Part shown: positions 8,678-27,696 of the stretch, piece after piece | Numbering within the stretch: position 1 is the stretch's first letter | How the letters are laid out: every line of letters begins with the position of its first letter | From: a virus | Virus record (IMG/VR): IMGVR_UViG_3300021247_000331 | Location: 1-30,999 of that record | Strand: one strand, 5' to 3' | DNA: 30,999 nt | The notes under the pieces: model-generated | The model's input: the letters and a program-made list of their open reading frames with translations, nothing else | What the model was told of the DNA's origin: nothing | Databases searched by the model: none | Position numbers and translations under genes: made by a program

Positions 8678-8704
8678 TATAACGAATTAATTTAGATTTT
8701 TGCA
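8678..8704 (-). promoter_or_regulatory. Putative late promoter (TGCAA-N15-CGTTATA)
   Basis: On the minus strand TGCAA (8704-8700) and CGTTATA (8684-8678) are 15 bases apart. They lie between a strong terminator and the next gene, where a new promoter is required. The same bipartite motif occurs at 10881-10907 and 12013-12040. Inferred to be read by the phage sigma factor. Confidence 0.5.
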
Positions 8705-8707
8705 AAT

Positions 8708-8738
8708 AAAAAAAGGTACACTATTAAATGTACCTTTT
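8708..8738 (-). terminator. Strong intrinsic terminator after the tail-tube gene
   Basis: AAAAGGTACA pairs with TGTACCTTTT around an 8-base loop and is followed on the minus strand by a T-run. It lies about 20 bases past the tail-tube stop. The symmetry makes it active in both directions in principle. Confidence 0.85.
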
Positions 8739-8760
8739 TTAAAACAATTAAACTTTAAAA

Positions 8761-9285
8761 TTATGGTGTAATCTGTGTTGCAGATGCTCTTGTTGTTACA
8801 ACAGTTGATGTCACAAATGGTGCAAGGATTGGCTCTTCGGCAGTAATTGTCAAAGTGTATCCATTCATATCACCAAGTGCAGTTCCGGTTGTAGCAGTAC
8901 CATTCACATTGCATCCTCTTGTCAATCCAACTGCGAAATAGTTTCCGTTGTTATCTTCAATGAATACGTGTGGTCTTTGTGAAACTATCTTTTGAATTTC
9001 AACTTGAGTAGCTGCATCCATTTTGGTTAATACAGTTGTCAAAGTTTGTCCATAGAAAGTAGTTCCATTCTCATCTGATGAAGTGATTGTCTGCTCCAAG
9101 TTGTTACCACCTTTTACATCGTATTTGTAAAAGTTAGTACCAGTTCCAGTCATTGCAGTCAATACTCCGGCAGTTATAGTCAATGTACCAAGTGTACCAT
9201 AGTCAGCAAAATATACTGTTCTAATTCCACCTACTACATCCTTGCAAGGAAGTTTTCTTCCGGTTGCCATTAAGCAAGTACTCAT
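8761..9285 (-). CDS. Major tail tube protein
   Basis: The 174-residue protein begins 'TGRKLPCKDVVGG', is rich in Thr, Gly and Val, and has the 'ALGDMNGYTLTITAEEP' stretch near the C-terminus (about 140-155) common in siphovirus tail tube subunits. It lies between two hairpins, one after the capsid gene and one after its own stop, an arrangement that suits a highly expressed, separately tuned structural gene. With a tape measure and no sheath gene it points to a siphovirus. Confidence 0.7.
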   Translation of the reverse strand: MSTCLMATGRKLPCKDVVGGIRTVYFADYGTLGTLTITAGVLTAMTGTGTNFYKYDVKGGNNLEQTITSSDENGTTFYGQTLTTVLTKMDAATQVEIQKIVSQRPHVFIEDNNGNYFAVGLTRGCNVNGTATTGTALGDMNGYTLTITAEEPILAPFVTSTVVTTRASATQITP

Positions 9286-9313
9286 ATCTTTTTTTTTATT
9301 AAATTAATAAATT

Positions 9314-9337
9314 AACCGGCTAATTTCTTAACCGGTT
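9314..9337 (-). terminator. Hairpin after the capsid gene, partial terminator or RNA stabiliser
   Basis: AACCGGTTAA pairs with TTAGCCGGTT over 10 bp (one G-T pair) around a GAAA loop on the minus strand. The following AATTTATTAATTT is a weak U-tract. It probably trims or protects the capsid mRNA while letting some transcription into the tail-tube gene. Confidence 0.6.
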
Positions 9338-9345
9338 ATATAAAT

Positions 9346-10257
9346 TTATGCAATTCCGTATGTAACTGCATCAGCACCGATACCTACTTGTAAACCTCTT
9401 GTAAAACGTGCAATGAAACGTACATTTTTACTTCCATCGATATCAGCCATATCAATCGTTTTAACCAAGTTTTGGTCATCAAGTAAACCAAATCCAACGA
9501 ATAAGTTTGAGATTTGAGCAGCTACCATTGTATTTGCCGGTAATCCGTTTGCAACAAAGATAGTAACGCCATCAAATGTAAGTTCACCACCATTGTACCA
9601 AGTTGTACCTTGAGCATTGATACCAGCGTTTGAAGTAGCAGCAACAGAGAAACCACCTAATGCTCTCACGTATGCTTTAGCTACGTTTTGAGATACAAAT
9701 ATTCTCAAGTCTTCTGTTCCATACAATGCTGCTGGAATAGCATCTACAACTCTACCCATTTCAGCAATAACATTTGAAGATGTGATAGTCAAAGGTGTAG
9801 AGATAGCAGTTGCTCCATCTGTTTTAAGTAATTTACCTAAACCGGTAGTAGCATTCCACAAGAAGTTTTCAGTATCCAAAGCAATGTCTTTCAACATTTT
9901 TGCAATAAAGAAATCAGAGAAAGTTGCCGGTAAAGAGTCAAACGCTGAATAACCCATTGATGCTGCTTCCCAATCTTGTTCGAATGGTGTTTTACAAAGT
10001 TGTAAGTTCACTTGTTTTTCAGCAACAGTCAATACTTTATCAGACAAAGTAACTACTCCAGTATCTGTAAAATCACAAGTTGCATCAGTCACAAGACCGG
10101 AAATAACTGCTTTTTTCAAAGTAGTTTTAAATTTAACATTTGGAATTACTGTAACTCCATTGTTTGCGATTGTGTTCGCACTTAATACCGCAGCAGAGAT
10201 ATATTTCCCAGCGAATTCTCCGGCATAATTTGATGTAATTGTTGGTTGATTTGCCAT
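9346..10257 (-). CDS. Major capsid protein
   Basis: The 303-residue protein follows protease and scaffold genes, as expected for the shell subunit of an HK97-fold capsid. It is rich in Ala, Thr, Val and Asn; 'LCKTPFEQDWEAASMGYSAF' (about 87-106), 'AEMGRVVDAIP', 'LRIFVSQNVAKAYVRALGG' and 'IARFTRGLQVGIG' near the end are typical of Bacteroidetes phage capsids. A long A-rich leader precedes the ATG and a hairpin follows the stop. No fold search was possible, so the call rests on position, size and remembered family features. Confidence 0.8.
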   Translation of the reverse strand: MANQPTITSNYAGEFAGKYISAAVLSANTIANNGVTVIPNVKFKTTLKKAVISGLVTDATCDFTDTGVVTLSDKVLTVAEKQVNLQLCKTPFEQDWEAASMGYSAFDSLPATFSDFFIAKMLKDIALDTENFLWNATTGLGKLLKTDGATAISTPLTITSSNVIAEMGRVVDAIPAALYGTEDLRIFVSQNVAKAYVRALGGFSVAATSNAGINAQGTTWYNGGELTFDGVTIFVANGLPANTMVAAQISNLFVGFGLLDDQNLVKTIDMADIDGSKNVRFIARFTRGLQVGIGADAVTYGIA

Positions 10258-10272
10258 TTTTTTTTAAATTTT

Positions 10273-10857
10273 TTAGTTTGATAATCTTGCAAATATCATC
10301 GCCTCTGTATTGGATGTATTTACCGGATTTGATAATTTAGATAATAGTTGTTTGTTCTCTGTTGGTTTGTGTTTCAAAGGTTTTTGTGCCGGTACACTTG
10401 ACAATGTAGCTTTTAATTCTTCGGCTTCTTTTTGATAACCTTTCATTTCTTCGATTTTAGCTTTTAACTCATCGATTTGAGTTTGTACTTCTGCCATAAC
10501 TTCTTTGACTTGTGCCATAGTTACCGGCTCTTCAGCAAGTACAACTTCCTCTGTAGTCTCTGCTACTTCTTCCGATGGTGTTTCTGCTGCCATCTCTACT
10601 TCTTCCTCAACTTCTTTAGTTGAAAGTTCTCCAATTTTACCGATTTCGTATACTTCAAGAACAGTAACGCCATCAGCCATTACATAACTTCCTACTTCCA
10701 ATGGCTCTTTGTTATCTCCATCAACTGCGTAAACTGCTTCGCCTACTGCAAAAGTATCCGCTTCGATAACTGTACCATTTTCCAAAGTCTGTTGCTCTAA
10801 TTTCACATTTCGTGAAAGCAAAGCATTGATTTTGCTTAAAATGTCTGTGTTTTTCAT
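10273..10857 (-). CDS. Scaffold-like capsid assembly protein
   Basis: This 194-residue protein lies directly upstream of the capsid gene. The N-terminal 70 residues are strand-rich, a Glu-rich stretch follows (about 80-115), then a coiled coil around 'VQTQIDELKAKIEEMKGYQK' and a basic, Pro-containing C-terminal tail. An acidic, coiled-coil protein between protease and capsid genes is the usual form of a scaffold that is cut by the protease. Confidence 0.65.
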   Translation of the reverse strand: MKNTDILSKINALLSRNVKLEQQTLENGTVIEADTFAVGEAVYAVDGDNKEPLEVGSYVMADGVTVLEVYEIGKIGELSTKEVEEEVEMAAETPSEEVAETTEEVVLAEEPVTMAQVKEVMAEVQTQIDELKAKIEEMKGYQKEAEELKATLSSVPAQKPLKHKPTENKQLLSKLSNPVNTSNTEAMIFARLSN

Positions 10858-10880
10858 ATTTTATTTATTAATAATATTAG

Positions 10881-10907
10881 TATAACGTATGCTAATTTTA
10901 TTTTGCA
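10881..10907 (-). promoter_or_regulatory. Putative late promoter (TGCAA-N15-CGTTATA) before the scaffold gene
   Basis: TGCAA (10907-10903) and CGTTATA (10887-10881) are spaced by 15 bases on the minus strand, the same as at 8678-8704. The ATG of the scaffold gene is 23 bases further on. It would boost scaffold and capsid expression. Confidence 0.5.
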
Positions 10908-10914
10908 TTTTCAC

Positions 10915-11076
10915 TTATGCATTTTCTCCTTTGCGATAGATGTTACCTATTCCTTGTGCTTGTAATGATCCATCACAACATTTCCGATTGTATGTGTTAT
11001 CAGCACATAAACAACCTCTGTCGCTCGTCTTTGGACTGGTCCGGCTTGGTGTTTTAAATCCGTTATCTTTTTTCAT
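10915..11076 (-). CDS. Small Cys-rich phage protein (53 aa)
   Basis: The ATG at 11076 (MKKDNGFKTP) is preferred, giving a 14-bp overlap with the protease stop. 'SDRGCLCADNTYNRKCCDGS' followed by 'QAQGIG' is a pattern I recall from many Bacteroidetes phages, always small and near head genes. The CxC and CC pairs suggest a metal or disulfide knot. Function unknown. Confidence 0.65.
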   Translation of the reverse strand: MKKDNGFKTPSRTSPKTSDRGCLCADNTYNRKCCDGSLQAQGIGNIYRKGENA

Positions 11077-12007
11077 TTCTGATTTGTTTAAGTTTGTTAC
11101 TTGCCCATTCAATACCGGCATCGCCACCCCAAGCTAACCACATAAGTCTGCCACAACCATCCCCTAAATCTTTTTGGCTATTCTTTTTGTGCCTTGCAAA
11201 TGAAGCCATCCTTGCAATAGTTTCTTCACTTATCTTTTCACCATTAGCTAATTGATTGGCTCTTGCTTTTCCTACTGCAGTCCCACAACTACCCCATCCA
11301 TTTTCTTCTGCATATCTCAAAGCTACTTTAGCATTCTCTGATGCTTCTTTTGGATAATCATTGAAGTTCTCTAAAATTACTTTTTTCTCAAAATCTTCGA
11401 TATAATATTTGATTGCTAATAATTCCAATCCGGCTTCAATCTCTGCATCTGTGTCATCAACTTGGACAACTTTTGACAAAGGTGTTTTCGCTCTGTCAGC
11501 AAAGTAACCTTCGATTGAAAATCCTTTGACTTTTTTGGTTTTTATAAACTCATCCCAAATCACTTCATTTTCAACTTTGATAGTTCCCATCCAAGTACCT
11601 ACCGGCACGTTTAAATTGTAAAGATTAGACTTGTCTTTTTCTTTATCTTCAACTATCCAAGACTCAACCATTGTCAATCCTTTGATCTCTTCTTTGTGTT
11701 CAAATGTTGCATTGCTTTGGTTACCATTTTGGAAAAACATCTCCATACATTTTCGGATAGTATCTTGGCTGAAATAAATATAGTATTCACCTTCTTTTTC
11801 ATCCCTTCTGTAGATAGGTTTATCCGGTACAAGCATTGCACCCATAATGATTTTCTTCTCCTTGTCTACTTCTGCAAAGTGATATTCTTTTTGTTCGCCT
11901 TTTAAAGCAATCCAATTCTCTTCAATGGCTGGATTTTCAACAATACTGATTGCATCTATTCCGGACAACTCCATTGTTTCGTCAATTATTAATTCTATAA
12001 GTCTCAT
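11063..12007 (-). CDS. XkdF-like prohead protease with C-terminal phage domain
   Basis: The 314-residue protein resembles the XkdF/S78_2-type prohead proteases that mature the capsid. The core (about 50-170) has 'IIMGAMLVPDKPIYRR', H104 in 'FEHKE' and S164 in 'KGFSIEGYF', the likely catalytic His and Ser. Residues 215-312 form a second domain, 'YPKEASENAKVAL', 'CGTAVG', 'ISEETIARMASF' and 'GDGCGRLMWLAWGGD', widespread in phage head proteins and of unknown role. The CGTTATA element lies 5 bases before its ATG. Confidence 0.8.
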   Translation of the reverse strand: MRLIELIIDETMELSGIDAISIVENPAIEENWIALKGEQKEYHFAEVDKEKKIIMGAMLVPDKPIYRRDEKEGEYYIYFSQDTIRKCMEMFFQNGNQSNATFEHKEEIKGLTMVESWIVEDKEKDKSNLYNLNVPVGTWMGTIKVENEVIWDEFIKTKKVKGFSIEGYFADRAKTPLSKVVQVDDTDAEIEAGLELLAIKYYIEDFEKKVILENFNDYPKEASENAKVALRYAEENGWGSCGTAVGKARANQLANGEKISEETIARMASFARHKKNSQKDLGDGCGRLMWLAWGGDAGIEWASNKLKQIRNEKR

Positions 12008-12012
12008 ATCTT

Positions 12013-12040
12013 TATAACGTTTTTTTATCCTAATGTTGCA
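12013..12040 (-). promoter_or_regulatory. Putative late promoter (TGCAA-N16-CGTTATA) before the protease gene
   Basis: TGCAA (12040-12036, inside the last codons of the tape measure gene) and CGTTATA (12019-12013) are 16 bases apart on the minus strand. CGTTATA is exactly 5 bases from the ATG, as at 8672 and 19498. Confidence 0.5.
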
Positions 12041-13926
12041 TTTTGTACTATACCTCTATTCAATCCTTGTTGTGTCGTAACATCTTGACCAACTACGAAT
12101 GCTTGTAGCGGTTGTTGCATTTGACCACCTATGGTTTGTGCTATTTGATTAGCACCACCTTGACCAACAATATTGAATGAAGGTGCAGAAGTACCACCAC
12201 CACCAACACCACCCATAGAAGGTTTACTAACACCGCCACCGCCACCACTTCCGGAAAGTAATGCTTTGGCTCTTGCGATATTTGATAATATTGTGGCTGA
12301 TCCACTTGCGTAAAATGCTATTTTAGTTGCTAAATATGTAGCCGGTGCTGCCGGTGGTGGTACTCCACTTGCTGCTCCACTTGCAGCGATTTCTGTTCCT
12401 TGCATCATTTTAGAGAATGCCGATGCACTATCTGCTGCTATCTGTGCCAATGTAATTGCTTTCATTACTGCTTGACCGGCTTTGCCTTTTGCTATTCCAT
12501 TTTCTTGCAATGCAGATAAAACATCACTTCCACTTTGAGCAATAGCTGATATTGCATCTGTTGTAGCTTGGAAATTTTCTAATTTTCTTTGTCTTGCCTC
12601 TTCTTCTCTTGCTTCTCTTTCGGTTTCACTATCATATAATATTTGAGCATAAGCTAATTCATTTTGTATTAACTTATCTTTTAGTGCTTGGTCTGCATCT
12701 AATTTAGCTTGATTAGTTGCAGAGAATTGTTCTATCGATGCAGTATCTATAGCTATTTGTTCTTCGCTTAATTCTTGGTTGTATTGCTTATTTAATTCTT
12801 TTAACTTTTTAAGTTTATCCTCTTCCGATAATTCCGCTTTTTTATCAATAGCATTTTTTCCTAATTGATAACCGGCTCTATCATTTAAAAGTTTATTAAT
12901 TGCATCTTGTGACGCTTTTACTGCTGCATCACCATCTTTTTTTACCTTTTCGGGATCAAATGCTAATTTGGCTAAATAGTCTACTGCTTGGTCTCCAAAC
13001 TTCTCATCAACTTTATATTTTATTTCAACGCCCGGCACTTTGTTGATTAAATCAATAATACCATTGATTGCTTTAGCACCATTTTCATATAAAAATCTGA
13101 TAGGCATTGAAACGAATTCTAAATATGATTTTAACATATCAAGGTTTCTTTCTGCACCTATTCTCGCTGCTTCATTATTTTCCTTTTGTGTCGCAAGGTT
13201 TATTTTGTTAGCTGCTATTGCTTCATCAGTCTGTTTGATTTTTATATCCAAAATCTCTTTCTCTGACTTACCTTGTAACTTTAGAATATTATCTTGCTCA
13301 TTGATTGATTTTAATTTCTCATTTTGTTGGTCAACATTCTTTTGGCTAATTGCGTTGAGTTTCTTTTGCTCTTCACTTACTCCACTTACTGCTGCCTTGA
13401 TATCATCCCAATAAGCATAGACTGCTCCTAACGCTACAACTAATAAACCAATCCCAGTACTACCTATTGCAGTTTTAATTCCATTGAATGCATCAATAGC
13501 AACCGCTTTCAACTGCTTGAAACTATCTCTTGCTTCTCCTAAACCTTGCAATCCGGCAGCAACCGCCATAGCAGATTGTACTTTCAAAAGTTGCTTTTCT
13601 AAATCTTTACTCTCTACACCGGCTAAACCTAATGCACCTTGATAGGCAGCAAATCCATTAGCAACACCGGAAAGAGATGCACTCAATGCTTTGAATTTTG
13701 CATCCGGATTGAATGCTTCGGTCAATGCTTTGGCATCACCAATTCTGTCCTTTAATTCTCCGGCTCTTTTTGCTGCTTCAACCGCTTCCTTTGAAGTTGC
13801 ACCAAACTTGTCAGATAGAGCAGCAACCTCTTGTTGTGCTTGTCTTAATTGGCTTTTTAAACTACCGAATGACTTGTCTGCTTGTTCGGTATTTACGTTT
13901 AAATTAATGTCTATTTCTTGTGCCAT
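12025..13926 (-). CDS. Tail tape measure protein
   Basis: The 633-residue protein has an N-terminal coiled coil ('LKSQLRQAQQEVAALSDKFG', about 23-45), a membrane-like hydrophobic segment (about 155-175, 'GIGLLVVALGAVYAYW'), and long charged helical regions (180-450). The C-terminus is Gly-, Ala- and Ser-rich. This is the usual make-up of a tape measure, which sets tail length and takes part in DNA ejection. At 633 residues the tail should be fairly short. The start overlaps the 50-residue upstream gene by 16 bp. Confidence 0.85.
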   Translation of the reverse strand: MAQEIDINLNVNTEQADKSFGSLKSQLRQAQQEVAALSDKFGATSKEAVEAAKRAGELKDRIGDAKALTEAFNPDAKFKALSASLSGVANGFAAYQGALGLAGVESKDLEKQLLKVQSAMAVAAGLQGLGEARDSFKQLKAVAIDAFNGIKTAIGSTGIGLLVVALGAVYAYWDDIKAAVSGVSEEQKKLNAISQKNVDQQNEKLKSINEQDNILKLQGKSEKEILDIKIKQTDEAIAANKINLATQKENNEAARIGAERNLDMLKSYLEFVSMPIRFLYENGAKAINGIIDLINKVPGVEIKYKVDEKFGDQAVDYLAKLAFDPEKVKKDGDAAVKASQDAINKLLNDRAGYQLGKNAIDKKAELSEEDKLKKLKELNKQYNQELSEEQIAIDTASIEQFSATNQAKLDADQALKDKLIQNELAYAQILYDSETEREAREEEARQRKLENFQATTDAISAIAQSGSDVLSALQENGIAKGKAGQAVMKAITLAQIAADSASAFSKMMQGTEIAASGAASGVPPPAAPATYLATKIAFYASGSATILSNIARAKALLSGSGGGGGVSKPSMGGVGGGGTSAPSFNIVGQGGANQIAQTIGGQMQQPLQAFVVGQDVTTQQGLNRGIVQNATLG

Positions 13927-18281: not shown

Positions 18282-18745
18282 TTGTTGATGTCATTAGGTA
18301 CATATACCGTGAAATTAGTCTCATAACCGGCTAACATATTTTCCATTTCCTTATTCACAACTTCACTTGTTGGATTGCCTTCCAATTCCCATCCATCTTT
18401 GTGGATTGTTGACTGTCTTAATCTGCTTAATAAACGATTAATAACATACAGTTGGTTGGTAAGTATGTAGAACAAATTATCATTGCCATAGATGCCTATT
18501 TCATCCTCTTTTGATATGTTGACGATATCTAAATTGTAAATGGTTAGATCAAAACCTAAAGTATTTTCGTTGTGTTGAACAGAATTCAAAGTGATATGGC
18601 TTAAAGGAAATATGGTTTGCTTTGCTAAATCAATTTCGGTTAGATTTCCTAAAGTTACTTTGTTTACAAATGGATTGCTTATCAACTCATCATTCATTGT
18701 GTCTATGATTTCGTATAACGCTTCAACTCCTTTTTTATTTTCCAT
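18275..18745 (-). CDS. Putative tail terminator / neck protein
   Basis: A 156-residue alpha/beta protein with 'VEALYEIIDTMNDELISNPFVNKVTLG' at the start and 'LGFDLTIYNLDIVNIS' in the middle. Its neighbour is gp10-like, and a tail terminator is the usual partner there. The fold cannot be confirmed from sequence alone, so this is an inference from place and size. Confidence 0.5.
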   Translation of the reverse strand: MENKKGVEALYEIIDTMNDELISNPFVNKVTLGNLTEIDLAKQTIFPLSHITLNSVQHNENTLGFDLTIYNLDIVNISKEDEIGIYGNDNLFYILTNQLYVINRLLSRLRQSTIHKDGWELEGNPTSEVVNKEMENMLAGYETNFTVYVPNDINKC

Positions 18746-19004
18746 ACTTCTTGTTTATTTTATCCAACTGCTTTTGTCTCAATTCATCTCTGCTTATCTT
18801 GTAACACAACATCTTAAAGCACAAATGCATATTTATTTTCGTTACTTTTTCAATCTTGGTGACATCGTTTTTTGCTAATTCAGCAAGTGAGCTAAACCAT
18901 CCCCATTCTTTTGTAAATTGACTCTCTGTGCTAAACTCATCTTGTTCAACTGATGCTCCAAATAATTGTGGGTAGATGTCACTAAATCCATTCCTAAATT
19001 CCAA
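18735..19004 (-). CDS. Second tail-chaperone reading frame, made by -1 frameshift
   Basis: About 89 residues in the -1 frame relative to the upstream gene, overlapping it by 130 bp. There is no ATG at its head; the frame enters directly from the run of nine T residues at 19011-19003. 'EWGWFSSLAELAKNDVTKIEKV' recalls a Bacteroidetes phage tail protein family, often the partner of a G-like chaperone. It is best read as the T part of a G-T fusion of about 254 residues (165 + 89), as in lambda. Confidence 0.65.
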   Translation of the reverse strand: MEFRNGFSDIYPQLFGASVEQDEFSTESQFTKEWGWFSSLAELAKNDVTKIEKVTKINMHLCFKMLCYKISRDELRQKQLDKINKKYGK

Positions 19005-19498
19005 AAAAAAACCGTTGCACCAAATACCGCACTCATTGGCATATCTTTCAATACTTCGTGATACTTATCTCCTTGATACTTCTCAACCGAATACTTACCA
19101 TCTTTTGTGTATTCTGTTATCGGTCTGTACAATACTCCCATAGCTACAACTATATTCTCAAAGTTATCGATGTTGTTATTTAAATCTAAAAATTCACCAA
19201 ATGGTAAATCGTCTAATTTTGGTAACCATCCGAATGTAATTCCATTCAACTGAAATGCTTGTACAAGTTTTGGCTCTTGGCTTAATAACTCTAAAATAAT
19301 GTTGACTACCTTATTGGCATCATCGTGTCTTATTTGCTTCGCTTTCTCTTCTGATAACTCGCAAAAGATTTCAATAATCTTCAACGCAAGATAGGTATCT
19401 TGGTTTGGTTGTGTCTTGCTTTTTTCAAAATCCTTCAAGTATCTTTGATACTTTGAAAGGCTTATTTCATCTAAACTACTTGGTACTAATAACTTCAT
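18875..19498 (-). CDS. Tail assembly chaperone, G-like
   Basis: A 207-residue protein, helical, with 'LSKYQRYLKDFEKS' and 'GITFGWLPKLDDLPFGEFLDL' (about 86-106), features of G-type tail chaperones that hold the tape measure during assembly. At codons 163-165, 'GTT TTT TTT', the frame crosses nine T residues where a -1 slip enters the downstream frame. It directly follows the terminase gene and lies far from the tape measure, an unusual place. A CGTTATA element lies 5 bases before its ATG. Confidence 0.65.
   Translation of the reverse strand: MKLLVPSSLDEISLSKYQRYLKDFEKSKTQPNQDTYLALKIIEIFCELSEEKAKQIRHDDANKVVNIILELLSQEPKLVQAFQLNGITFGWLPKLDDLPFGEFLDLNNNIDNFENIVVAMGVLYRPITEYTKDGKYSVEKYQGDKYHEVLKDMPMSAVFGATVFFWNLGMDLVTSTHNYLEHQLNKMSLAQRVNLQKNGDGLAHLLN
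19003..19011 (-). other. Slippery T9 site for -1 ribosomal frameshifting
   Basis: Nine consecutive T residues on the minus strand, read GTT TTT TTT TGG in frame 0. A one-base slip gives TTT TTG GAA and joins the G-like frame to the second frame. No ATG opens the second frame. A sequencing miscount in the run would look the same, but the frame-0 end is itself plausible. Confidence 0.6.
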
Positions 19499-19503: not shown

Positions 19504-19529
19504 TATAACGTTTTTATTTTTTATTTGTG
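19504..19529 (-). promoter_or_regulatory. Possible late promoter (CACAA-N14-CGTTATA)
   Basis: CGTTATA (19510-19504) lies exactly 5 bases before the chaperone ATG. The upstream element is CACAA, 14 bases away, a weaker match to the TGCAA seen at three other sites. It sits between the terminase stop and the chaperone gene. Confidence 0.4.
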
Positions 19530-19530: not shown

Positions 19531-20727
19531 TTACCTTATGTGATATGTTCCTCTATTTTTCAAATCTTTGTGCGACTGAATAGCTAAAGCCAAACTAATC
19601 ACACTATCATCGTGAATTCCTACTGGTGCAGAATATTGAACATTACGTGTATTTTGGTTATAGATATAAGTAAATGCATCTAATTCATCTATCATCCAAG
19701 ATGTGTTTAAAATTGATATTTCCTTCTGCTCAAATAAGACTGCTAAATCTTCTATCATTATAGGTTTTGTCTTTGTCGATGTGATGAATGGATATACTTT
19801 TGAGCCACACAACTTTTTCAACATCTCATAAAACACATCACCTTGATTGTTCACTTCAACATAAACCTTTGCATTGTATTCATTTATCTTGACTGATACT
19901 TTCTCAATTATCTTTGTCCATTCATCTTTTCTCCATCGGTCTGTAAATACTACTTGCTTATGCTCATTTACAATAGTCAAGACTGTGTAGTCATCTGCTC
20001 TTCCGATATCCAATCCGCCAAAGTAAATGCTTGAATGTGATGGCTCTTTTATGCACTCTCTTACATTCATAAACAATCCACTTGAATTGTCTAAAAACTC
20101 CGCAAGGTATTCTTGTCTAAAGATATGGTTTGGCAAACTTCTCTTTCTCTCTTCTAAATCTAACTCATTGATGAATGGTGTATCATAAGAAGTAAAATGA
20201 AAATACTTGTATCTGTCATCATAGTTAGGTTGCAATGATAATTTATAAAAATGATTTTTGCCTTTAGGTGTTGAAATAAAGATGACCTTTTTTCCTTTAA
20301 CCAAGACTGTTGCAGATAGCACTTCACTCCACAACTCCTCACGTGTAAATGCAACTTCATCTATTATCAAATAGTCAAATGTATTACCTCTAATGTTGTC
20401 CGGTCTCTCACCACTAAAAAAAGAGATAGTGCTTCCAAATCCTTTGACTGTCAATTCACTTTGGTTAAACGCAAAAAAACCACTCGACTTTGTGGCTTTC
20501 TCTAATTCTTCAAATACTTTCTTCCCTTGCTTGTACACCGGTGTTACCCAAGCAATATTGCAACCTCTATTATTGATTGCCCAGTACAACATCTGATTTA
20601 TTGCTAACATCGTCTTACCAAACTGCCTTCCAATATTCAACACATAGTATTTGTATTGCTCATTATTGATTGAGTTATGGATCAACCTTTGGTTTGGATG
20701 TGGCTTGTATCCTTTTATGCTACTCAT
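19531..20727 (-). CDS. terL: Terminase large subunit
   Basis: The packaging motor ATPase and nuclease. Counted from the ATG at 20736: Walker A GRQFGKT (36-42), Walker B DYLIIDE (121-127), coupling motif STPKG (155-159), and nuclease acidic residues in 'GLDIGRADDYT' (241-251) and 'IHDDSVISLALA' near the end. I prefer the ATG at 20727 (MSSIKGY), which gives an 8-bp overlap with the small-subunit stop; 20736 is also possible. Circular permutation of the genome would fit a headful-type terminase. Confidence 0.9.
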   Translation of the reverse strand: MSSIKGYKPHPNQRLIHNSINNEQYKYYVLNIGRQFGKTMLAINQMLYWAINNRGCNIAWVTPVYKQGKKVFEELEKATKSSGFFAFNQSELTVKGFGSTISFFSGERPDNIRGNTFDYLIIDEVAFTREELWSEVLSATVLVKGKKVIFISTPKGKNHFYKLSLQPNYDDRYKYFHFTSYDTPFINELDLEERKRSLPNHIFRQEYLAEFLDNSSGLFMNVRECIKEPSHSSIYFGGLDIGRADDYTVLTIVNEHKQVVFTDRWRKDEWTKIIEKVSVKINEYNAKVYVEVNNQGDVFYEMLKKLCGSKVYPFITSTKTKPIMIEDLAVLFEQKEISILNTSWMIDELDAFTYIYNQNTRNVQYSAPVGIHDDSVISLALAIQSHKDLKNRGTYHIR

Positions 20728-21124
20728 CGAATTCAAACTTGGTGATGTTCACATCTGTTTGTGTCTTCTCAACTAAACCGTTTAATCTTTGCGTTATACT
20801 TGGATTGTACATCCCAGCCATACCACCTTCGATTTGGTCTTGCCTTACTGCTTTTTTTACACGTGAACAGATAGTTAAATAGTCTGTGTATTTATTATTA
20901 GTATTTGCAAAATAATGGCTTAAATCGCCTATAATGTTGTTGTCAAATAACCAACATTCAAAACCTTCTATTGTCAATGGTCTTTCTTTCTCTCTATACA
21001 CATCGGTTGCATATTTACCTACCCAATCTTTTACTAAAAATGGTTTGCTCTTTGTCTCTTTTTTATAGAGTTCAAAATACTCCCATAGTTTTTCCGGTGT
21101 CTCTATGTATTTTTTCTTTCCCAT
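20720..21124 (-). CDS. terS: Terminase small subunit
   Basis: A 134-residue helical protein directly before and overlapping the large subunit. 'TPEKLWEYFELYKKETKSKP' at the start and 'AVRQDQIEGGMAGMYNPSITQRLNGLVEK' near the end match the pattern of P22 Gp3-like small terminases common in Bacteroidetes phages. It would bind the pac site and start headful packaging. Confidence 0.75.
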   Translation of the reverse strand: MGKKKYIETPEKLWEYFELYKKETKSKPFLVKDWVGKYATDVYREKERPLTIEGFECWLFDNNIIGDLSHYFANTNNKYTDYLTICSRVKKAVRQDQIEGGMAGMYNPSITQRLNGLVEKTQTDVNITKFEFDE

Positions 21125-22155: not shown

Positions 22156-22530
22156 TTAGTTAGCTTCGATACAGTTTTTTATCTGTTGTAACTTCTCTTT
22201 ATTTCTTACATTCTTAATCATTTGAATAATCTCAAATTGCAATGGCTCTTGGTCTAATATTATACCTCTAATTTCTTCAAGTTTTGGCTCTTCCTTTTTC
22301 GTTATCTCATATAACTTGATATTGTGGATCAAAGTAGCGTGAGTAAAATCCTTACCGTTTTGTTTGAAGATTTCCAATATCTTATATAACGTGAAATTCC
22401 AATCTTTGCGTAGAATGTATATGAACAATGTTCGTGCAGTCACAACTGGTCTCTTTCGTGAGTCTTCGTAGATGTTTATGTTTAGTTCTTTTTTGATTTC
22501 TTTCTCAATCAATCTGTAGTCTTTAATCAT
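22156..22530 (-). CDS. DnaA domain IV-like DNA-binding protein, possible replication initiator
   Basis: In the 124-residue protein, 'RPVVTARTLFIYILRKDWNFTLYKILEIFKQ' followed by 'DFTHATLIHNIKLYE' (about 27-75) matches the layout of the DnaA C-terminal duplex-binding domain, including a DHxT-like signature. No ATPase domain is present. Phages of this group often carry such short proteins near replication genes; role as origin binder is inferred. A possible late promoter lies inside the gene. Confidence 0.6.
   Translation of the reverse strand: MIKDYRLIEKEIKKELNINIYEDSRKRPVVTARTLFIYILRKDWNFTLYKILEIFKQNGKDFTHATLIHNIKLYEITKKEEPKLEEIRGIILDQEPLQFEIIQMIKNVRNKEKLQQIKNCIEAN
22385..22410 (-). promoter_or_regulatory. 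Possible internal late promoter
   Basis: CGCAA-N14-CGTTATA on the minus strand, similar to the motif before the protease and scaffold genes and followed by TAAGATATTGG, close to the sequence after the motif at 19504. It would serve the phosphoesterase and terminase genes. Inside a coding region, so chance is not excluded. Confidence 0.3.
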
Positions 22531-22531
22531 T

Positions 22532-22654: not shown

Positions 22655-22655
22655 C

Positions 22656-23366
22656 TTATTTGGTTTTTAATTTTAAAAGTAAATAGCACTCTATAAATCG
22701 CTCTCGTGCCTTCTGTTTGTGTAATTCTTTGTATAGACTAAATACTACTCTTTTAAACTGAAAGTCTGTTAAACAGTCTTTAAATGCTTTTTTACAATAT
22801 GCTTTACCGTATCCTTTGCAGAAGTTCACATTGTCTGATGTATCACCCATTATCATTTGCTCATAGAAATTGTATCTTGCTTCTGCTTCGGATATATCAT
22901 AATAACATTGATGTTTGATATGGTAGTTGTAAATGATGCAAGGTAACTGCTTATAATCTTTGTCGATTGATACTATCAAGACTTCATTTCTTCCAAATGT
23001 ATCTGATAATTTTTTCCAATATGTTGCAACTAAATCATCAGTCTCTACTCCGGCACCTCTTTTTGCTTCGTACTGCTCAACTACATAAACTTGCAATTCA
23101 TTTAAGATTGGTGGAATTTCTCGGTCAATTCTATTGGCTTTGTAATTCTTTGATATCTCTTTCCGGAAGTTTCCTATTGCACAAGCAAATGTCATAACCT
23201 TATCTATTTCGTATGTTTCTTCAATCCGGTTAATGATATTCATAAAGACTTCATCAAACTTCAATTTAGCATCTTCAATGGTATGGTAACCGGTATCCGT
23301 TTCTTGCTCTTTTGCTTTGTAACAACTTGACCAAATCAAACTGTCTGCATCTACTAATACTATCAT
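22656..23366 (-). CDS. 5'-3' exonuclease / flap endonuclease
   Basis: I chose the ATG at 23366 (MIVLVDADSLIW), which gives a 4-bp ATGA overlap with the methyltransferase stop. The protein then has 236 residues with the FEN/PIN-type motifs: VDAD near the start, 'FRKEISKNYKANR', 'ETDDLVATYW', 'VSIDKDYKQLPC', and the helix-hairpin region 'MGDTSDNVNFCKGYGKAYCKKAF'. It likely removes primers or processes ends in replication and recombination, with ERF as partner. Confidence 0.85.
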   Translation of the reverse strand: MIVLVDADSLIWSSCYKAKEQETDTGYHTIEDAKLKFDEVFMNIINRIEETYEIDKVMTFACAIGNFRKEISKNYKANRIDREIPPILNELQVYVVEQYEAKRGAGVETDDLVATYWKKLSDTFGRNEVLIVSIDKDYKQLPCIIYNYHIKHQCYYDISEAEARYNFYEQMIMGDTSDNVNFCKGYGKAYCKKAFKDCLTDFQFKRVVFSLYKELHKQKARERFIECYLLLKLKTK

Positions 23367-24499
23367 CTTTCTTGATTTATGAATGAAAAAATATGTTCTA
23401 TAATTGGCAATGTCCAACCATCGCCAAGCAAACTACCAGCTTTGGCAGTTGAAAGTATATCACAGTAATCATCCGGAAACCCTTGAAGTCTGCACATCTC
23501 AATCTTGTTGACTGTTTTAACCTTTCCATCTTTGTAACTATAGAGAAGGTTAGATGACTGCATCAAACAAGGTGACTTCCCTTTTGTCACTCTTCCTCGT
23601 CTTGTTGTTGATGTTGGATAACTTAAATCCAAACAATCATTTTCAGTAACAACTTCATATCCTTTTTCGGTGTTTGCTTTTACTCTTAATTCGCCATTAA
23701 ATTCATAGATCAAAGTAATCATTCCGGTGGTTTCATTTCTATTTTTTAAATACTCTTGTTTACTATTTTGCATAGCTCCACTCAACGTATTCAAACAAGT
23801 ATGTTTATCAGTATCAACGTAAATTTGTGGTACACCAAATTTTTCTCTACTTTTTATTCCATCTTGAGTATGTTGAACTCTACTAATACTTTCCATCAAA
23901 CAACAAGATTTAATTCTTTCAACTGTTCCACTTGTGATGATGTCCTTGAACATTATTCCTCTGTCTTTTGGTTTTGGAATATCAGTTATAATATCACCAA
24001 ACATTCCATCTTCTTTAGTTCTTATATTTGACCAATAATAACGGTCACGTAATTGTGCAGTAACTAAACTGCTATTAATTCTTACCGGATAAACACCTAA
24101 TGCTCTGCTCATAATACCAACATCCAACTTGGATGCACTTCCTACATTTTCTTGAAGAAATAAGATTTTAGGATTTAATGATTTTATGTGTTCTAATATT
24201 TCTACAAATACAAAGAATAGACTTGATTTCTTTCCATTTATACCGGCTCTTTTACCGGCAGCAGATAAATCTTGGCAAGGTGATCCACTCAATACTAAAT
24301 CAATACTTTTCCAATCTATATTCCATTCTCGCCATTTAGTAACATCACCAAGTTGAATTGTGTCCGGAAAATGATACTGTGTCAATTCTATAGCGTAAGG
24401 TTTAATTTCGCTTGAATAGTATTTCTCTACTTTGATACCGACATTTTCAAGTGCTTGTCTTCCGGTATTCATTCCATTAAATAAAGATAAGACTATCAC
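23363..24499 (-). CDS. C5-cytosine DNA methyltransferase
   Basis: The GTG at 24499 gives a 4-bp GTGA overlap with the upstream gene and starts VIVLSLFNGMNTG, the usual motif I position; the ATG at 24541 would overlap by 46 bp. Counted from GTG, motif IV PCQ is at 74-76 (Cys75 nucleophile), motif VI ENV at 117-119, motif VIII QLRDR at 149-153, and motifs IX-X 'RLQGFPDDY' and 'GSLLGDGWTLPI' near the end. 378 residues is typical. No restriction enzyme gene is next to it, so it most likely protects phage DNA. The target is unknown; CCGG is suggested by its abundance in the genome. Confidence 0.9.
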   Translation of the reverse strand: MIVLSLFNGMNTGRQALENVGIKVEKYYSSEIKPYAIELTQYHFPDTIQLGDVTKWREWNIDWKSIDLVLSGSPCQDLSAAGKRAGINGKKSSLFFVFVEILEHIKSLNPKILFLQENVGSASKLDVGIMSRALGVYPVRINSSLVTAQLRDRYYWSNIRTKEDGMFGDIITDIPKPKDRGIMFKDIITSGTVERIKSCCLMESISRVQHTQDGIKSREKFGVPQIYVDTDKHTCLNTLSGAMQNSKQEYLKNRNETTGMITLIYEFNGELRVKANTEKGYEVVTENDCLDLSYPTSTTRRGRVTKGKSPCLMQSSNLLYSYKDGKVKTVNKIEMCRLQGFPDDYCDILSTAKAGSLLGDGWTLPIIEHIFSFINQER

Positions 24500-24669
24500 G
24501 ATACAAGTCTGTTTATTTGTTCTTGCTTTTCTTCCAACCATTTGTCAAAAGTTATTGCGACATAACTACTGCTAAAGGTTTTGTGCATTTCGTACTGGGC
24601 ATCTCTCCAACATTCTTTCATTTGTTCAAGTGTGAATGTTTGCTCTTGTTCTTCTGTTTTGTTTTCCAT
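24496..24669 (-). CDS. Small acidic protein (57 aa) before the methyltransferase
   Basis: MENKTEEQEQTF to ...QINRLVS, mostly helical, with 'DAQYEMHKTFSSSYVAITFDKWLEE', a pattern seen in small phage proteins with a 'FDxWL' end. It is the first gene behind the strong promoter at 24699-24728 and overlaps the methyltransferase by GTGA. Function unknown. Confidence 0.65.
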   Translation of the reverse strand: MENKTEEQEQTFTLEQMKECWRDAQYEMHKTFSSSYVAITFDKWLEEKQEQINRLVS

Positions 24670-24698
24670 TTTTTAAATTGTTTAGTGTTTTATTTTTT

Positions 24699-24728
24699 CA
24701 AAGATAACTATTTCTAACTTATTAACAA
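24699..24728 (-). promoter_or_regulatory. Bacteroidetes-type promoter of the middle operon
   Basis: On the minus strand TTG (24728-24726), 19 bases, then TATCTTTG (24706-24699), a full match to TTG-N19-TAnnTTTG. The ATG at 24669 lies about 30 bases downstream, and a CACTAAA leader element (24681-24687) lies between. Read by the host primary sigma factor. Confidence 0.8.
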
Positions 24729-24745
24729 AATTATAATATCTTTTT

Positions 24746-25159
24746 TTAGTATTTATTCAAAATCGCTGCTTGGCTCTCCGAAAGCATATAGCATTTTTTA
24801 TCAATCAAATCAGTTCTTTCATACTTATGTGTAACTGGTGTATTAATGCTGACTAATTCCGGCAATATCAGCGTATCTAAATGATAAAGATAGTTTCCGC
24901 CACCATCAAAGACATAATAAAACTTCATACAGTTTGGCTCTGACATTAACTTATCGTACTTGTATTGTTCTAATACCTTTGTCGGATAGTATTTATGCCT
25001 TAACTTAAATTCAATTACGCAATCAAATCCTTTTGGTGTTTTACCCTTTGCATCGTAGTGTTCAAATTCTTCTCCGGTCCAAGTTAAATCCCATCCATCC
25101 AAGTTCATCAAATGAATGATACCTTGTTCCCATTTGTGGTGTGATGTCTGTTCACTCAT
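24746..25159 (-). CDS. Possible PD-(D/E)XK nuclease
   Basis: A 137-residue protein with D36, then 13 residues, then E50-F-K52, followed by 'LEQYKYDKLM', which resembles the active-site layout of PD-(D/E)XK nucleases. The N-terminal 'SEQTSHHKWEQGIIHLM' could form the first helix. The match is by motif spacing only. It ends the small-gene operon upstream of the middle promoter and overlaps the previous gene by 4 bp. Confidence 0.45.
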   Translation of the reverse strand: MSEQTSHHKWEQGIIHLMNLDGWDLTWTGEEFEHYDAKGKTPKGFDCVIEFKLRHKYYPTKVLEQYKYDKLMSEPNCMKFYYVFDGGGNYLYHLDTLILPELVSINTPVTHKYERTDLIDKKCYMLSESQAAILNKY

Positions 25160-25377
25160 AATAGCTCTATTTCTTTTTTAACTTCAAACCAATAATTTAT
25201 CAATGGATTAATATCTTTTGCCAATACATTTATTATCTCGACAACTGCTATTAATGCACATTGTTTGGCGTTTTCTAAATGTTCTTCTATTTGGTCGTGG
25301 TCTTCTTGTCTATCTACCCCATCTGCATAAGGCATAAATTCATCTACTAACTCTATTGCTTTTTCTTGTGGTGTCAT
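25156..25377 (-). CDS. Small acidic conserved phage protein (73 aa)
   Basis: Helical throughout: 'PQEKAIELVDEFMPYADG', then a polar loop with 'HDQIEEHLENAKQCALIAVVEIINVL'. The phrase 'AKQCALIAVVEII' occurs in small Bacteroidetes phage proteins as I recall them. It overlaps both neighbours by 4 bp. Function unknown. Confidence 0.7.
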   Translation of the reverse strand: MTPQEKAIELVDEFMPYADGVDRQEDHDQIEEHLENAKQCALIAVVEIINVLAKDINPLINYWFEVKKEIELL

Positions 25378-25754
25378 AAGTTTACAATTAGTTCTTCGTT
25401 GGTCAAAGCAAAGTATAGGTTTTGAAGTTGATGTAGGTATTTAATTAAAACATACTCATTATTTAAACAAAAAGAAATAGCACCACCATCAAATATTCTA
25501 AAAAATAAATCATAGTACTTGTGTTTGTAAATATTAAATGAATTGTTTTTTTTGTCTTTCTCAAATCCACACTTCAATAGTATTTCTTCGGTTAGTGGGA
25601 TTGGTTTAAACATATCCCATAAATCCGACCAATTATCATCACTTACTCTAAAATCATTTAAAGAAATTTGCCTTTTTGTTTTACTTATACCGTAAGAATA
25701 GATAGTTTCATCTTCAATTATCCAATTCCCAATTCTCAATTCGTTTGCTTTCAT
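25374..25754 (-). CDS. Conserved Bacteroidetes phage protein (ELRIGNW family)
   Basis: The 126 residues begin 'KANELRIGNWI', then 'FKPIPLTEEILLKCGFEKD' and end with 'IKYLHQLQNLYFALTNEELIV'. This layout is very common among phage and prophage genes of Bacteroidetes, but I know no function. It overlaps its neighbours by 4 bp. This stretch lacks the CCGG sites so common elsewhere in the genome. Confidence 0.75.
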   Translation of the reverse strand: MKANELRIGNWIIEDETIYSYGISKTKRQISLNDFRVSDDNWSDLWDMFKPIPLTEEILLKCGFEKDKKNNSFNIYKHKYYDLFFRIFDGGAISFCLNNEYVLIKYLHQLQNLYFALTNEELIVNL

Positions 25755-25948
25755 TCTTTTAGGTATAATTCGTTTAGATCATCAATATAACTCTGTATTA
25801 CTTTTGGATCACATTTGCAAGGATAATTGACTGCGTGATTGAAATAGTGTGCGTGAAGTTCACTTATTCTTAAATATTCGTCATTGCTTACTACATTCCT
25901 TAAATTGTCTCTAAAATTCTGCCACCATCTTTTGTCTGTCTTGTTCAT
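25751..25948 (-). CDS. Small hypothetical protein (65 aa)
   Basis: 'RWWQNFRDNLRNVVSNDEYLRISELHAHYFNHAVNYPCKCDPKVIQ' split by turns suggests a small helical protein with a CKC pair that could bind metal together with its histidines. Four-base overlap with the next gene. No family recognised. Confidence 0.65.
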   Translation of the reverse strand: MNKTDKRWWQNFRDNLRNVVSNDEYLRISELHAHYFNHAVNYPCKCDPKVIQSYIDDLNELYLKE

Positions 25949-25949
25949 C

Positions 25950-26255
25950 TTATTTCTTTTTAAATTGTTCTAACCATTTTTCTATTACATCTTTTCTGAT
26001 TGAATTTTCATAAAAGTTATCACAAAATTCATTTAAAATATTCAATACTTCTTCCTCACTATACAATTTTTCTATGGCATCTTTAAATCCTTTATCATAA
26101 GCATTATCCATTTCCTTCTCACTATACAAGTTCTTGTTTTGTTTTTCTAAAATGTACTTTGAGTAGTTTTCAGCAATTTCAAAATGGCTCATCATCTTGC
26201 CACCTTGTCTTCTTAATTGGTCATAATAACATTCTTCTGCACTTAATATTTTCAT
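25950..26255 (-). CDS. Hypothetical protein with internal LYSEEE repeats (101 aa)
   Basis: Two similar segments, 'LYSEKEMDNAYDKGF' (about 43-57) and 'LYSEEEVLNILNEF' (about 64-77), followed by a basic end, 'WLEQFKKK'. The repeats are typical of small early proteins in flavobacterial phages. Start follows the upstream stop at once (TAAGATG). Function unknown. Confidence 0.65.
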   Translation of the reverse strand: MKILSAEECYYDQLRRQGGKMMSHFEIAENYSKYILEKQNKNLYSEKEMDNAYDKGFKDAIEKLYSEEEVLNILNEFCDNFYENSIRKDVIEKWLEQFKKK

Positions 26256-26256
26256 C

Positions 26257-26388
26257 TTATTTAGTTTTAGTGATTAATGTTATTACAAAAAATGCAAAAA
26301 ATAATCTTTTGTATTTTTTTTGATTTACTGTAGTGGTTGTGGATTTTGAAAATCCTAACCATTCTTTGCTAATGTCTATTTTTATCAT
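26257..26388 (-). CDS. Small protein with possible membrane segment (43 aa)
   Basis: MIKIDISKEWLGF to ...LITKTK. A hydrophobic run, 'LFFAFFVITLI' (about 29-39), is flanked by basic residues. Its stop is one base before the next ATG. It carries a CACTAAA element in its last codons that also lies 10 bases before the next start. Moderately likely to be expressed. Confidence 0.45.
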   Translation of the reverse strand: MIKIDISKEWLGFSKSTTTTVNQKKYKRLFFAFFVITLITKTK

Positions 26389-26488
26389 CTTATTCTTTTT
26401 TATAAAGTTCAATTATTTCTTCTCTAATCATTTTCTTTTGTTAATTTAGTATGACAAAATCATACCTATCGGGTAGTTATAAAACATT
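26389..26488. other. Short non-coding gap
   Basis: Contains a 6-bp hairpin (GTATGA/TCATAC, 26450-26466) without a following T-run on either strand, and a 13-codon frame from 26431 that is too short to support. It may be the other edge of the inserted segment that holds the orphan gene 26489-26689. Confidence 0.35.
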
Positions 26489-26689
26489 TTACTCAACAAT
26501 CGTATAATGTTCGTAACCTTTTGTTAATTCTTCTATTTTTTTATTTTTCTGCTCATCAGAATTATATGGAAACCAATTATTTGGATTACCATAAAAATCT
26601 AAAGTTCCATCATCTATAATTCTTGGGTTTACCATTACTAAACCGCTACCCCAATCATCCCATACTAAAATTGAAAATCCTTTTCCCAT
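26489..26689 (-). CDS. Orphan small protein beside an attC-like repeat (66 aa)
   Basis: The protein has 'GFSILVWDDWGSGLVMVNPRI' split over a loop, 'GNPNNWFPYN', and a polar end. It is Trp-, Gly- and Asn-rich and unlike its neighbours. It stands alone, with about 100 bases of gap downstream and a 140-bp inverted repeat ending 7 bases before its ATG. That arrangement resembles a single-gene cassette. Function unknown. Confidence 0.6.
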   Translation of the reverse strand: MGKGFSILVWDDWGSGLVMVNPRIIDDGTLDFYGNPNNWFPYNSDEQKNKKIEELTKGYEHYTIVE

Positions 26690-26695
26690 AATAAA

Positions 26696-26837
26696 AACGT
26701 TTTATAACAGCAATTACACGCTATTGCTACATTGTGATTAATTTAGTGATTTGTGTGTATCTTTTAGCTTCGTGTTAAACCGAAAGATAGTTTTGTATTT
26801 TTACGCAACAGACGTGTAGTTGCAAAACGTTATATGC
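26696..26837. repeat. attC-like imperfect inverted repeat
   Basis: The left arm AACGTTTT-ATAACA-GCAATTACACG (26696-26720) matches the reverse complement of the right arm (26813-26831), apart from the 6-base insert and one mismatch. Pairing continues inwards (CTATTGC against CTGTTGC). The right edge ends GTTATATGC, close to the integron core GTTRRRY. Length, about 140 bp, is within the attC range. It abuts the stop of the gene at 26837-27013. No integrase is present in the genome. Confidence 0.5.
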
Positions 26838-27013
26838 TATTTTCTTTTTATTTCTCCGTTTAAAAAATCCCTTCTTTCATCGCATTTGCAATTTGGATAT
26901 ATTTTCTTAACAATCCATTTTATACCAGTATATCTGAATATTAATTCCAATCTATCTCCTAACCTTGTTTCCTTCAGATAGTCTCTTAAATCGTCTTTAA
27001 ATGCTTTTTTCAT
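26837..27013 (-). CDS. Small Cys-containing conserved protein (58 aa)
   Basis: MKKAFKDDLRDYL... with 'RLELIFRYTGIKWIVKKIYPNCKCDERRDFLNG' at the C-terminal half. The pattern 'TGIK..V......C.CD.R...LN' is common in small Bacteroidetes phage proteins, where the Cys pair may bind metal. The start lies within the end of the upstream 58-residue gene. Function unknown. Confidence 0.65.
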   Translation of the reverse strand: MKKAFKDDLRDYLKETRLGDRLELIFRYTGIKWIVKKIYPNCKCDERRDFLNGEIKRK

Positions 27014-27173
27014 TGTACTTTGCTTTTAAGATTAGTGCTATTTCATTCCAATGGTTCAACATCTCTATGTTATCATTCTTTCGGTACATAGTAATCATTC
27101 CGTTGACTACTTCTCTATTGTAGTTCTTGCTATATTTATTTAGAAGTATTTCTGCTCTTTGTTGTGCTTCCAT
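26997..27173 (-). CDS. Small hypothetical protein (58 aa) overlapping the sigma gene
   Basis: MEAQQRAEILLNKY to ...AKYNEKSI, helical and charged. It overlaps the sigma factor's last 38 bases, more than other overlaps here, so a later start is possible. 'VVNGMITMYRKNDNIEMLNHW' suggests two helices. A role linked to the sigma factor (anti-sigma or co-factor) is only a thought from position. Confidence 0.55.
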   Translation of the reverse strand: MEAQQRAEILLNKYSKNYNREVVNGMITMYRKNDNIEMLNHWNEIALILKAKYNEKSI

Positions 27174-27696
27174 CTTTTATTTGTTGTTTAATTCTTAATA
27201 CTGTATTTCTAATCGACCAATAACTCAAGTTTGTTTCATTTGCTAACTGCTGCACCGACACATCCTCTAAAAATATTTTTTGATAGATAAACCGGATGTA
27301 ACAAAGCGATGCTTGATATTGGCTATATTCTTGCTCTCTGTTGATTTCTTTGTCTAATTCCTTTACCCAGTTTTTTAATGCTTTAGATTGCTCAATGTAA
27401 TTGTCAATCGTTTCTACTTCCTCAACTGTATGATTGTCTTCTAACTCTGTAAATGTGATTTTCTTTTTGGCTCTGATATCATCATAATACATATTTTTCA
27501 AAGTAACATAAACAAAGAAGAAATTAACCTCATTTTGGTTGAACATCAAATCATTTCCTTTCTGACTGTAATTGTATATTTTGATGTACATTTCTTGGAC
27601 ATAGTCTTCTGCTATATCTGCCGGACAACCAAAAGAAATGACATACTTTATCCAAGTATTGTGCTTCAAGCAAAGTATGTCAAGAATATTAATCAT
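27136..27696 (-). CDS. Phage-encoded sigma-70-family (ECF-like) sigma factor
   Basis: A 186-residue protein with the two-domain form of ECF sigma factors. Region 2: 'PADIAEDYVQEMYIKIYNY' (about 25-43) and 'FFFVYVTLKNMYYDDIRAKKK' (59-79). A linker with acidic residues follows. Region 4 helix-turn-helix: 'DVSVQQLANETNLSYWSIRNTV' (about 145-166). It would direct host RNA polymerase to phage promoters, most likely the late genes. The ATG overlaps the helicase stop by 4 bp, so it is made with early genes, in time for late transcription. Confidence 0.8.
   Translation of the reverse strand: MINILDILCLKHNTWIKYVISFGCPADIAEDYVQEMYIKIYNYSQKGNDLMFNQNEVNFFFVYVTLKNMYYDDIRAKKKITFTELEDNHTVEEVETIDNYIEQSKALKNWVKELDKEINREQEYSQYQASLCYIRFIYQKIFLEDVSVQQLANETNLSYWSIRNTVLRIKQQIKDGSTTKSRNTSK

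Follow-up and report, generated by a model that had tools for sequence, protein, structure and literature searches.

How does a phage whose genes lie nearly all on one strand turn on its virion genes as a set? The question is raised by the IMG/VR virus record IMGVR_UViG_3300021247_000331 (30,999 bases; called the window here, meaning the whole stretch of DNA analysed), in which nearly all long open reading frames (ORFs) are on the minus strand. A first-pass annotation of it had noticed a recurring bipartite motif and a gene for an extracytoplasmic function (ECF)-like sigma factor, and had proposed a self-encoded late transcription switch. Our analysis indicates that the phage very probably uses an ECF-type late sigma factor of its own with at least five co-evolving, mostly leaderless late promoters. 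The elements concerned are as follows.

19504–19529, minus strand: late promoter 1 (CACAAA ... CGTTATA), predicted start site 19498, the A of an ATG; leaderless
12013–12040, minus strand: late promoter 2 (TGCAA ... CGTTATA), predicted start site 12007, the A of an ATG; leaderless
10881–10907, minus strand: late promoter 3 (TGCAA ... CGTTATA), predicted start site about 10875; leader of about 18 nt
8678–8704, minus strand: late promoter 4 (TGCAAAA ... CGTTATA), predicted start site 8672, the A of an ATG; leaderless
22385–22410, minus strand: late promoter 5 (CGCAAA ... CGTTATA), inside ORF 22156–22530, upstream of the terminase genes
27136–27696, minus strand: ECF-type sigma gene, 186 amino acids, with region 2 (residues ~1–84) and region 4 (~98–182), from TIGR02937, AF2, Foldseek and VIA

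TGCAA-N14..17-CGTTATA matches the window three times, at 8678–8704, 10881–10907 and 12013–12040, all on the minus strand and exactly where the first-pass annotation had placed them, against an average of 0.02 matches (maximum 1) in shuffled sequences. CGTTATA also lies, as had been reported, exactly 5 bases upstream of the ATGs at 8672, 12007 and 19498. By itself this half-motif is weak evidence (9 copies versus 3.3 expected), and the case rests on the bipartite motif and on genome comparison. The −35 element is better written (T)(G/C)CAAAA, and the distance from the end of CAA to CGTTATA is usually 15 bases and 14–16 in most of 102 distinct sites. With this consensus, the CACAA and CGCAA copies at 19504–19529 and 22385–22410, formerly taken for weaker ones, are normal sites. 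Thus CAAAA and CGTTATA, 14–16 bases apart, provide the −35 element, the CGT-type −10 element and the spacer (about 16 is typical) of an ECF promoter. The motif had also been described as lying always between operons. This is only partly true of 12013–12040, where the −35 half sits inside the last codons of the tape-measure ORF 12025–13926. A CGTTATA copy at 18714 was rejected as chance, being kept in 1 of 29 orthologs. The plus-strand copies at 26828–26834, 20792–20798 and 1408–1414 oppose the gene direction; they are unexplained or due to chance, and their number is about what chance predicts.

Is the motif kept where it would matter? The annotation had named conservation upstream of the same genes in relatives as the decisive point. 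We oriented 31 related IMG/VR contigs (capsid protein about 60–94% identical) and checked the regions within 110 bases upstream of the orthologs of 41 window genes for CGTTATA-like elements. In nearly every relative, the motif proved to be kept, and upstream of the same four units, and the proposal withstands this test. At the front of the portal unit (8672), it occurs in 24 of 28 orthologs, with a constant distance of 5 bases to the ATG; at the scaffold front (10857), in 25 of 32, at 18–30 bases from the ATG. The front at 12007 has it in 28 of 31 orthologs and that at 19498 (ORF 18875–19498) in 28 of 30. Upstream of the other window genes and their orthologs, early genes included, it is absent or sporadic. 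Across the 32 genomes, all 47 matches to the full bipartite motif are on the late strand. Five genomes have an extra gene of 130–150 amino acids before the scaffold gene, and in these the promoter stands before the extra gene. The motif is a real, well-conserved feature. A naive 8-mer enrichment scan was dropped because A-runs swamped it, and the ortholog-based comparison was used instead.

Where would transcription start? The distance from CGTTATA to the ATG is all-or-none: among the 102 distinct sites, it is exactly 5 bases at 62, 0–4 or 6–12 bases at none, and 13–48 bases at 40. In the leadered group of 40, index 12, which is the slot of the A of the ATG elsewhere, is taken by A in 90% and by G in 10%, and the next base is A in 90%. 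The distance to CAAA of the −35 element is equal in the two classes. Such an all-or-none spacing is to be expected if the start base is fixed and ribosomes tolerate messages that either lack a leader or have one no shorter than about 8 bases. The spacing and the fixed purine of the leadered sites together place the predicted start site on the A of the ATG. They support the view that most late mRNAs are leaderless, in line with the "very short or leaderless late mRNAs" that the annotation had suggested. The units differ in this respect. The spacing of the portal unit is always 5, the scaffold/capsid unit is always leadered when the promoter directly precedes it, and the remaining two fronts (19498 and 12007) alternate among relatives between 5 and at least 13. 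For comparison, start sites in Flavobacterium johnsoniae lie 4–5 bases from the −7 element (PMC6847099), and here 5 bases separate CGTTATA from the predicted start. Leaderless mRNAs are rare in hosts of this kind, 5.5% in F. psychrophilum (PMC9723704). Leaderless starts do not seem to be universal in the phage group either, since the start codon is about 7 bases further out in relatives of the type of contig G041, described below.

The site at 8678–8704 has a further feature that fits a promoter, namely the strong terminator that the annotation had seen directly before it.

8709–8740, minus strand: intrinsic terminator just upstream of promoter 4 (folding −15 kcal/mol, z −5.6)

Folding bears this terminator out, and it is conserved before the portal-unit promoter in almost all relatives (mean −14.5 versus −4.5 for shuffles; a U run in 24 of 25). 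A terminator scan missed 8709–8740, probably since the stem runs into the A/U tract.

The site at 22385–22410 is inside an ORF, which might suggest a chance match, and a codon test speaks against this. The test compared the 60 codons of 16 non-redundant orthologs of ORF 22156–22530 with the codon usage of these genomes. Two codons exceed the rest by eight orders of magnitude, ACG (Thr, 7% usage; 13 of 16) and CGC (Arg, 3% usage; 9 of 13); the p-values treat the sequences as independent although they are related, but the two codons stand apart from the 58 others in the alignment irrespective of this. The conserved rare codons coincide with the C-G of CGTTA and with the first bases of the −35 GCAAA. 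An equivalent bipartite sequence lies upstream of terL in most relatives, and the isolated Nonlabens phage P12024S has a further site, CGTTAATTAATATG, before gp35, upstream of terL. Given the rare-codon constraint and these matches before terL, the terminase genes appear to have a late promoter embedded in coding DNA.

What could read these promoters? ORF 27136–27696 was annotated as an ECF-like sigma, and modelling agrees with a two-domain ECF fold. In the AF2 model (pLDDT 83, pTM 0.42), the two domains are well predicted and their mutual arrangement is not. The top Foldseek matches are all ECF sigmas. By VIA, region 2 (residues 1–84) superposes on RpoE/SigW with an rmsd of 2.5–3.5, and region 4 (98–182) on the region 4 of E. 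coli sigmaE bound to −35 DNA with an rmsd of 2.4. The predicted architecture is that of the ECF group (group IV), in that regions 2 and 4 are present, regions 1.1 and 3 are not, and the length of 186 amino acids is within about 160–210. TIGR02937 matches 36 of 37 sigma homologs (best 5e-10). The gene is found in 25 of the 31 related records, and the six that lack it are fragments of 18.1–21.3 kb; it is retained in every relative long enough to show it.

A profile search of IMG/VR gave 80 sigma loci. The window sigma alone, as a query, found no IMG/VR relatives, which came from whole-record searches and the profile. Neither the window sigma nor two other sigma types had a tblastn match in GenBank phages, no solved structure matched the sigma by sequence, and a pattern search among 84,980 genomes found no cellular sigma relative. 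Its neighbours are a helicase gene (27693–28604) and small unknown ORFs; no anti-sigma partner was recognised there, and no anti-sigma search was made. A 62.6 kb contig carries, beside its normal sigma gene, a second, very weak sigma-like match (locus L109, G008:C1:46064–46393; E 9.5e-5). A large clade of sigma homologs (L227, L230, L236, L241–L247), on IMG/VR contigs of unknown host, has the C-terminal tail "EDYxDFxNGDYxLI"; most of these contigs are too short to show late promoters.

Do sigma and promoter change together? Contig G041 has its own sigma (at 12432), 25% identical to that of the window. Each of its four orthologous fronts bears TGTTTTTAAATA, which occurs 4 times forward and not once in reverse; CGTTATA is absent. 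At 30 loci with a G041-type sigma, TGTTTTTAAATA occurs 31 times forward and once in reverse, and CGTTATA, at 46:55, gives no signal. A third sigma clade goes with CAGTTATCAT, in which AGTTA is again 7 bases from the ATG. P12024S-type sigmas go with CGTTAATATA, with 7 bases from CGTTA to the ATG. P12024S itself has a sigma homolog, gp33 (25% identity; hidden Markov model E 1e-23), and CGTTA-N7-ATG at six annotated gene starts. Bacteroides phage p00, whose capsid protein is related, lacks both a sigma homolog and CGTTA-N7-ATG. Among the promoters, the −35 element is well kept while the −10 element varies. Because all late promoters of one genome change at once, a single trans-acting reader is indicated, and the phage sigma appears as the only candidate found that changes with them. 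The proposal of a self-encoded late switch with a matching motif thus gains from the genome comparison in two ways: the motif precedes the same four virion-gene units in almost every relative, and sigma clades correlate with the promoter variant.

G041 could be taken for a contradiction, with a sigma near-identical to that of contig G039 and a different motif. This is rejected, as the contig (IMGVR_UViG_3300042311_000159, 37,191 bases, with loci L256 and L257) looks chimeric and holds two different sigma genes, its own being the one at 12432. Its last 6.2 kb (late-gene orientation) are 99.3% identical to G039 and partly repeat its own first 2.7 kb at 89–96%.

The following course of events would account for these observations. 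Host polymerase with host sigma-A would read the early and middle genes, and the sigma (27136–27696) would be produced from this early/middle block. The phage sigma would then recruit the host core RNA polymerase to late promoters composed of (T)(G/C)CAAAA, about 15 bases and CGTTATA. Four promoters would serve the virion units at 19498, 12007, 10857 and 8672, and the fifth, inside ORF 22156–22530, the terminase genes. Transcription would start 12 bases from the C of CGTTATA, which is the A of the start codon at three promoters, so that these messages would have no leader, and the scaffold/capsid unit would retain one of about 18 bases. Conservation, position and geometry of the sites, the fold of the sigma, and the co-variation of promoter and sigma clade are what we observed; we infer that the sigma binds, that expression is late, where exactly transcription starts and that translation is leaderless. 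Timing, recruitment and binding follow the precedent of phiEco32 gp36 and phage 7-11 gp47, which are phage-encoded late sigmas with cognate promoters before virion genes (PMC8948821).

Could the motif be something other than a promoter read by the phage sigma? CGTTATA-N5-ATG might be a Kozak-like translation start signal, as its spacing to the ATG is fixed at most sites and Flavobacterium uses upstream-sequence signals in place of Shine-Dalgarno (PMC6847099). A translation signal would hardly explain a second element, CAAA, at a fixed distance in both site classes, nor the 40 sites that are 13–48 bases from the ATG, one site inside an ORF far from any start, another directly after a terminator, and the absence of the motif from early genes; we give this reading almost no credence. 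If the sites are promoters, a host ECF sigma of the CGT-box type might read them, and the phage sigma-like protein would do something else. A CGT box likewise occurs in an ECF motif of a flavobacterial host (PMC9723704), and this counts against a phage sigma as the reader. Yet the −10 element shifts together with the phage sigma clade, and the motif is missing from p00, a related phage that lacks the sigma. Host ECF regulons are moreover condition-dependent, and a lytic phage could presumably hardly rely on them. A host reader is unlikely on this evidence. Slightly less likely still is that specificity comes from another phage factor, such as an activator or a sigma-A appropriator, on which the phage sigma depends or which acts in its stead. 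The sigma of phiEco32 is aided by gp79 (PMC8948821), and two readers are conceivable where −35 is kept while −10 varies. Against this, the modelled sigma has both DNA-reading domains and fits a bipartite promoter of ECF type, although no search for a second candidate was made.

Several other points weigh against a late sigma encoded by the phage. The TIGR02937 (sigma70-ECF) score of the window protein is 30.3 bits (E 2.9e-7) versus a curated cut-off of 42.9, and the protein has no Pfam sigma match of its own. Because its score is under that cut-off, we file it, from the model, as ECF-like by fold and not as a curated family member. The promoter of the sigma gene itself was not found. The spacing analysis forced ortholog starts to ATG. 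The co-variation of sigma and promoter is correlative, in a tree that holds few independent changes, and does not prove contact, and the placement of divergent sigmas in this tree is unsure because of long branches. Sigma and promoter could both track phage phylogeny without touching each other. Shared phylogeny alone is weakened as an explanation, since the simultaneous change of all sites in one genome needs a shared reader.

A phage late sigma with cognate promoters is a known kind of system. As in phiEco32, the sigma is kept across the phage group, and a shared motif stands before virion genes and not before early genes. The likeness to phage 7-11 extends to bipartite promoters, there with a 16-base spacer. 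The sigmas of 7-11 and phiEco32 are distantly related (15% identity), and their promoters differ in sequence while occupying similar places in the genome; the sigma clades described here show the same relation. The differences are that those phages infect Enterobacteriaceae and use the promoters GTAAtg-16-aCTA and tAATGTAtA, whereas here most start sites would fall on the start codon and one promoter would be embedded in coding DNA. In addition, phiEco32 gp36 is without region 4 and its promoters are without a −35 element, and the window phage has both. A phiEco32-type sigma in phage SU10 has been annotated as ECF (PMC4281155). With bacterial ECF sigmas (E. coli sigmaE, B. subtilis SigW, M. 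tuberculosis SigH/SigL), the window sigma shares regions 2 and 4, a short protein and a bipartite promoter with a CGT-type −10; in contrast to them, it is phage-borne, without a close cellular homolog found, and scores below the curated ECF cut-off. Nonlabens phages P12024S/L share distant homologs of the sigma (gp33, annotated "Sigma-70 region 2") and of the late genes, and have CGTTA-N7-ATG before late genes; their −10 differs in reading CGTTAATATA. The open-access literature searched held no description of P12024S/L late promoters or of the late-gene switch of this phage group (subscription papers were outside the search).

What is new is the host phylum, the promoter classes, the start sites at start codons and the intragenic promoter. 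We think it likely that this lineage of Bacteroidota phages bases its late programme on fast-diverging ECF-type sigmas with at least three specificity classes, each with a concerted promoter set. Most virion mRNAs would be leaderless in hosts where such mRNAs are rare, with a leader only for scaffold/capsid, and one late promoter would lie in coding sequence at a cost in rare codons. If true, this would be the first late-gene switch described for these abundant, poorly studied aquatic phages. It would provide a set of naturally occurring sigma-promoter pairs that serve one and the same group of late genes, suited to working out how ECF region 2 reads the −10 element, and the pairs could serve as orthogonal expression parts for Bacteroidota. 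It also opens to experiment the question of whether virion genes are translated from leaderless messages in a host that has few of them.

The early/middle block runs, from the right, through genes for an ERF-like protein (29025), a DUF3127 protein (28664), the helicase (27693), the sigma (27136), small ORFs and a methyltransferase (23363); to its left follow, in order, terminase genes, tail genes, a protease-like gene, scaffold and capsid genes, and the portal gene. The names ERF, methyltransferase, protease and scaffold were given by eye and position only. The host is probably a flavobacterial member of the Bacteroidota. This is indicated by the GenBank relatives, which are Nonlabens phages P12024S/L (capsid protein 33%) and, remotely, p00-type Bacteroides phages, and by DNA-level matches to isolated phages, which span only 130–160 bases and are in Flavobacterium phages.

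The annotation had contrasted the late motif with a host-type TAnnTTTG box in front of the middle operon. A host-type site is indeed present there.

24699–24729, minus strand: host sigma-A-type promoter-like site TTTG-N19-TATCTTTG, before the methyltransferase-like ORF 23363–24541 (consensus from PMC9723704)

The TAnnTTTG box by itself occurs 28 times on the minus strand versus 33 on the plus strand, so it is not enriched on the gene strand. A sigma-70 scan for TTGACA/TATAAT gave fewer matches than shuffles and was uninformative, and no host-type promoter was found directly upstream of the helicase and sigma genes of the window.

The genes associated with the late promoters are listed below.

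22156–22530, minus strand: ORF carrying promoter 5, with weak similarity to the DnaA C-terminal helix-turn-helix (PF08299 3.9e-5, below cut-off)
19531–21124, minus strand: terminase small (20720–21124) and large (19531–20736) subunit genes, downstream of promoter 5
18875–19498, minus strand: first gene of the tail unit, which spans 19498 down to the tape-measure ORF 12025–13926
11063–12007, minus strand: late gene downstream of promoter 2, prohead protease-like by eye only
10273–10857, minus strand: scaffold-like gene (position and eye only), heading the unit with the capsid gene 9346–10257
9346–10257, minus strand: major capsid protein-like gene (phrog_11320 1e-33, phrog_1623), homolog of the major capsid protein of Bacteroides phage p00
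8319–8672, minus strand: first gene of the portal unit; true start ATG 8672, not TTG 8705
6429–8318, minus strand: portal protein gene (phrog_33693 6.8e-96)

The small protein of ORF 22156–22530 stands before the terminase genes in this phage group, and is a possible origin-binding or packaging-site protein.

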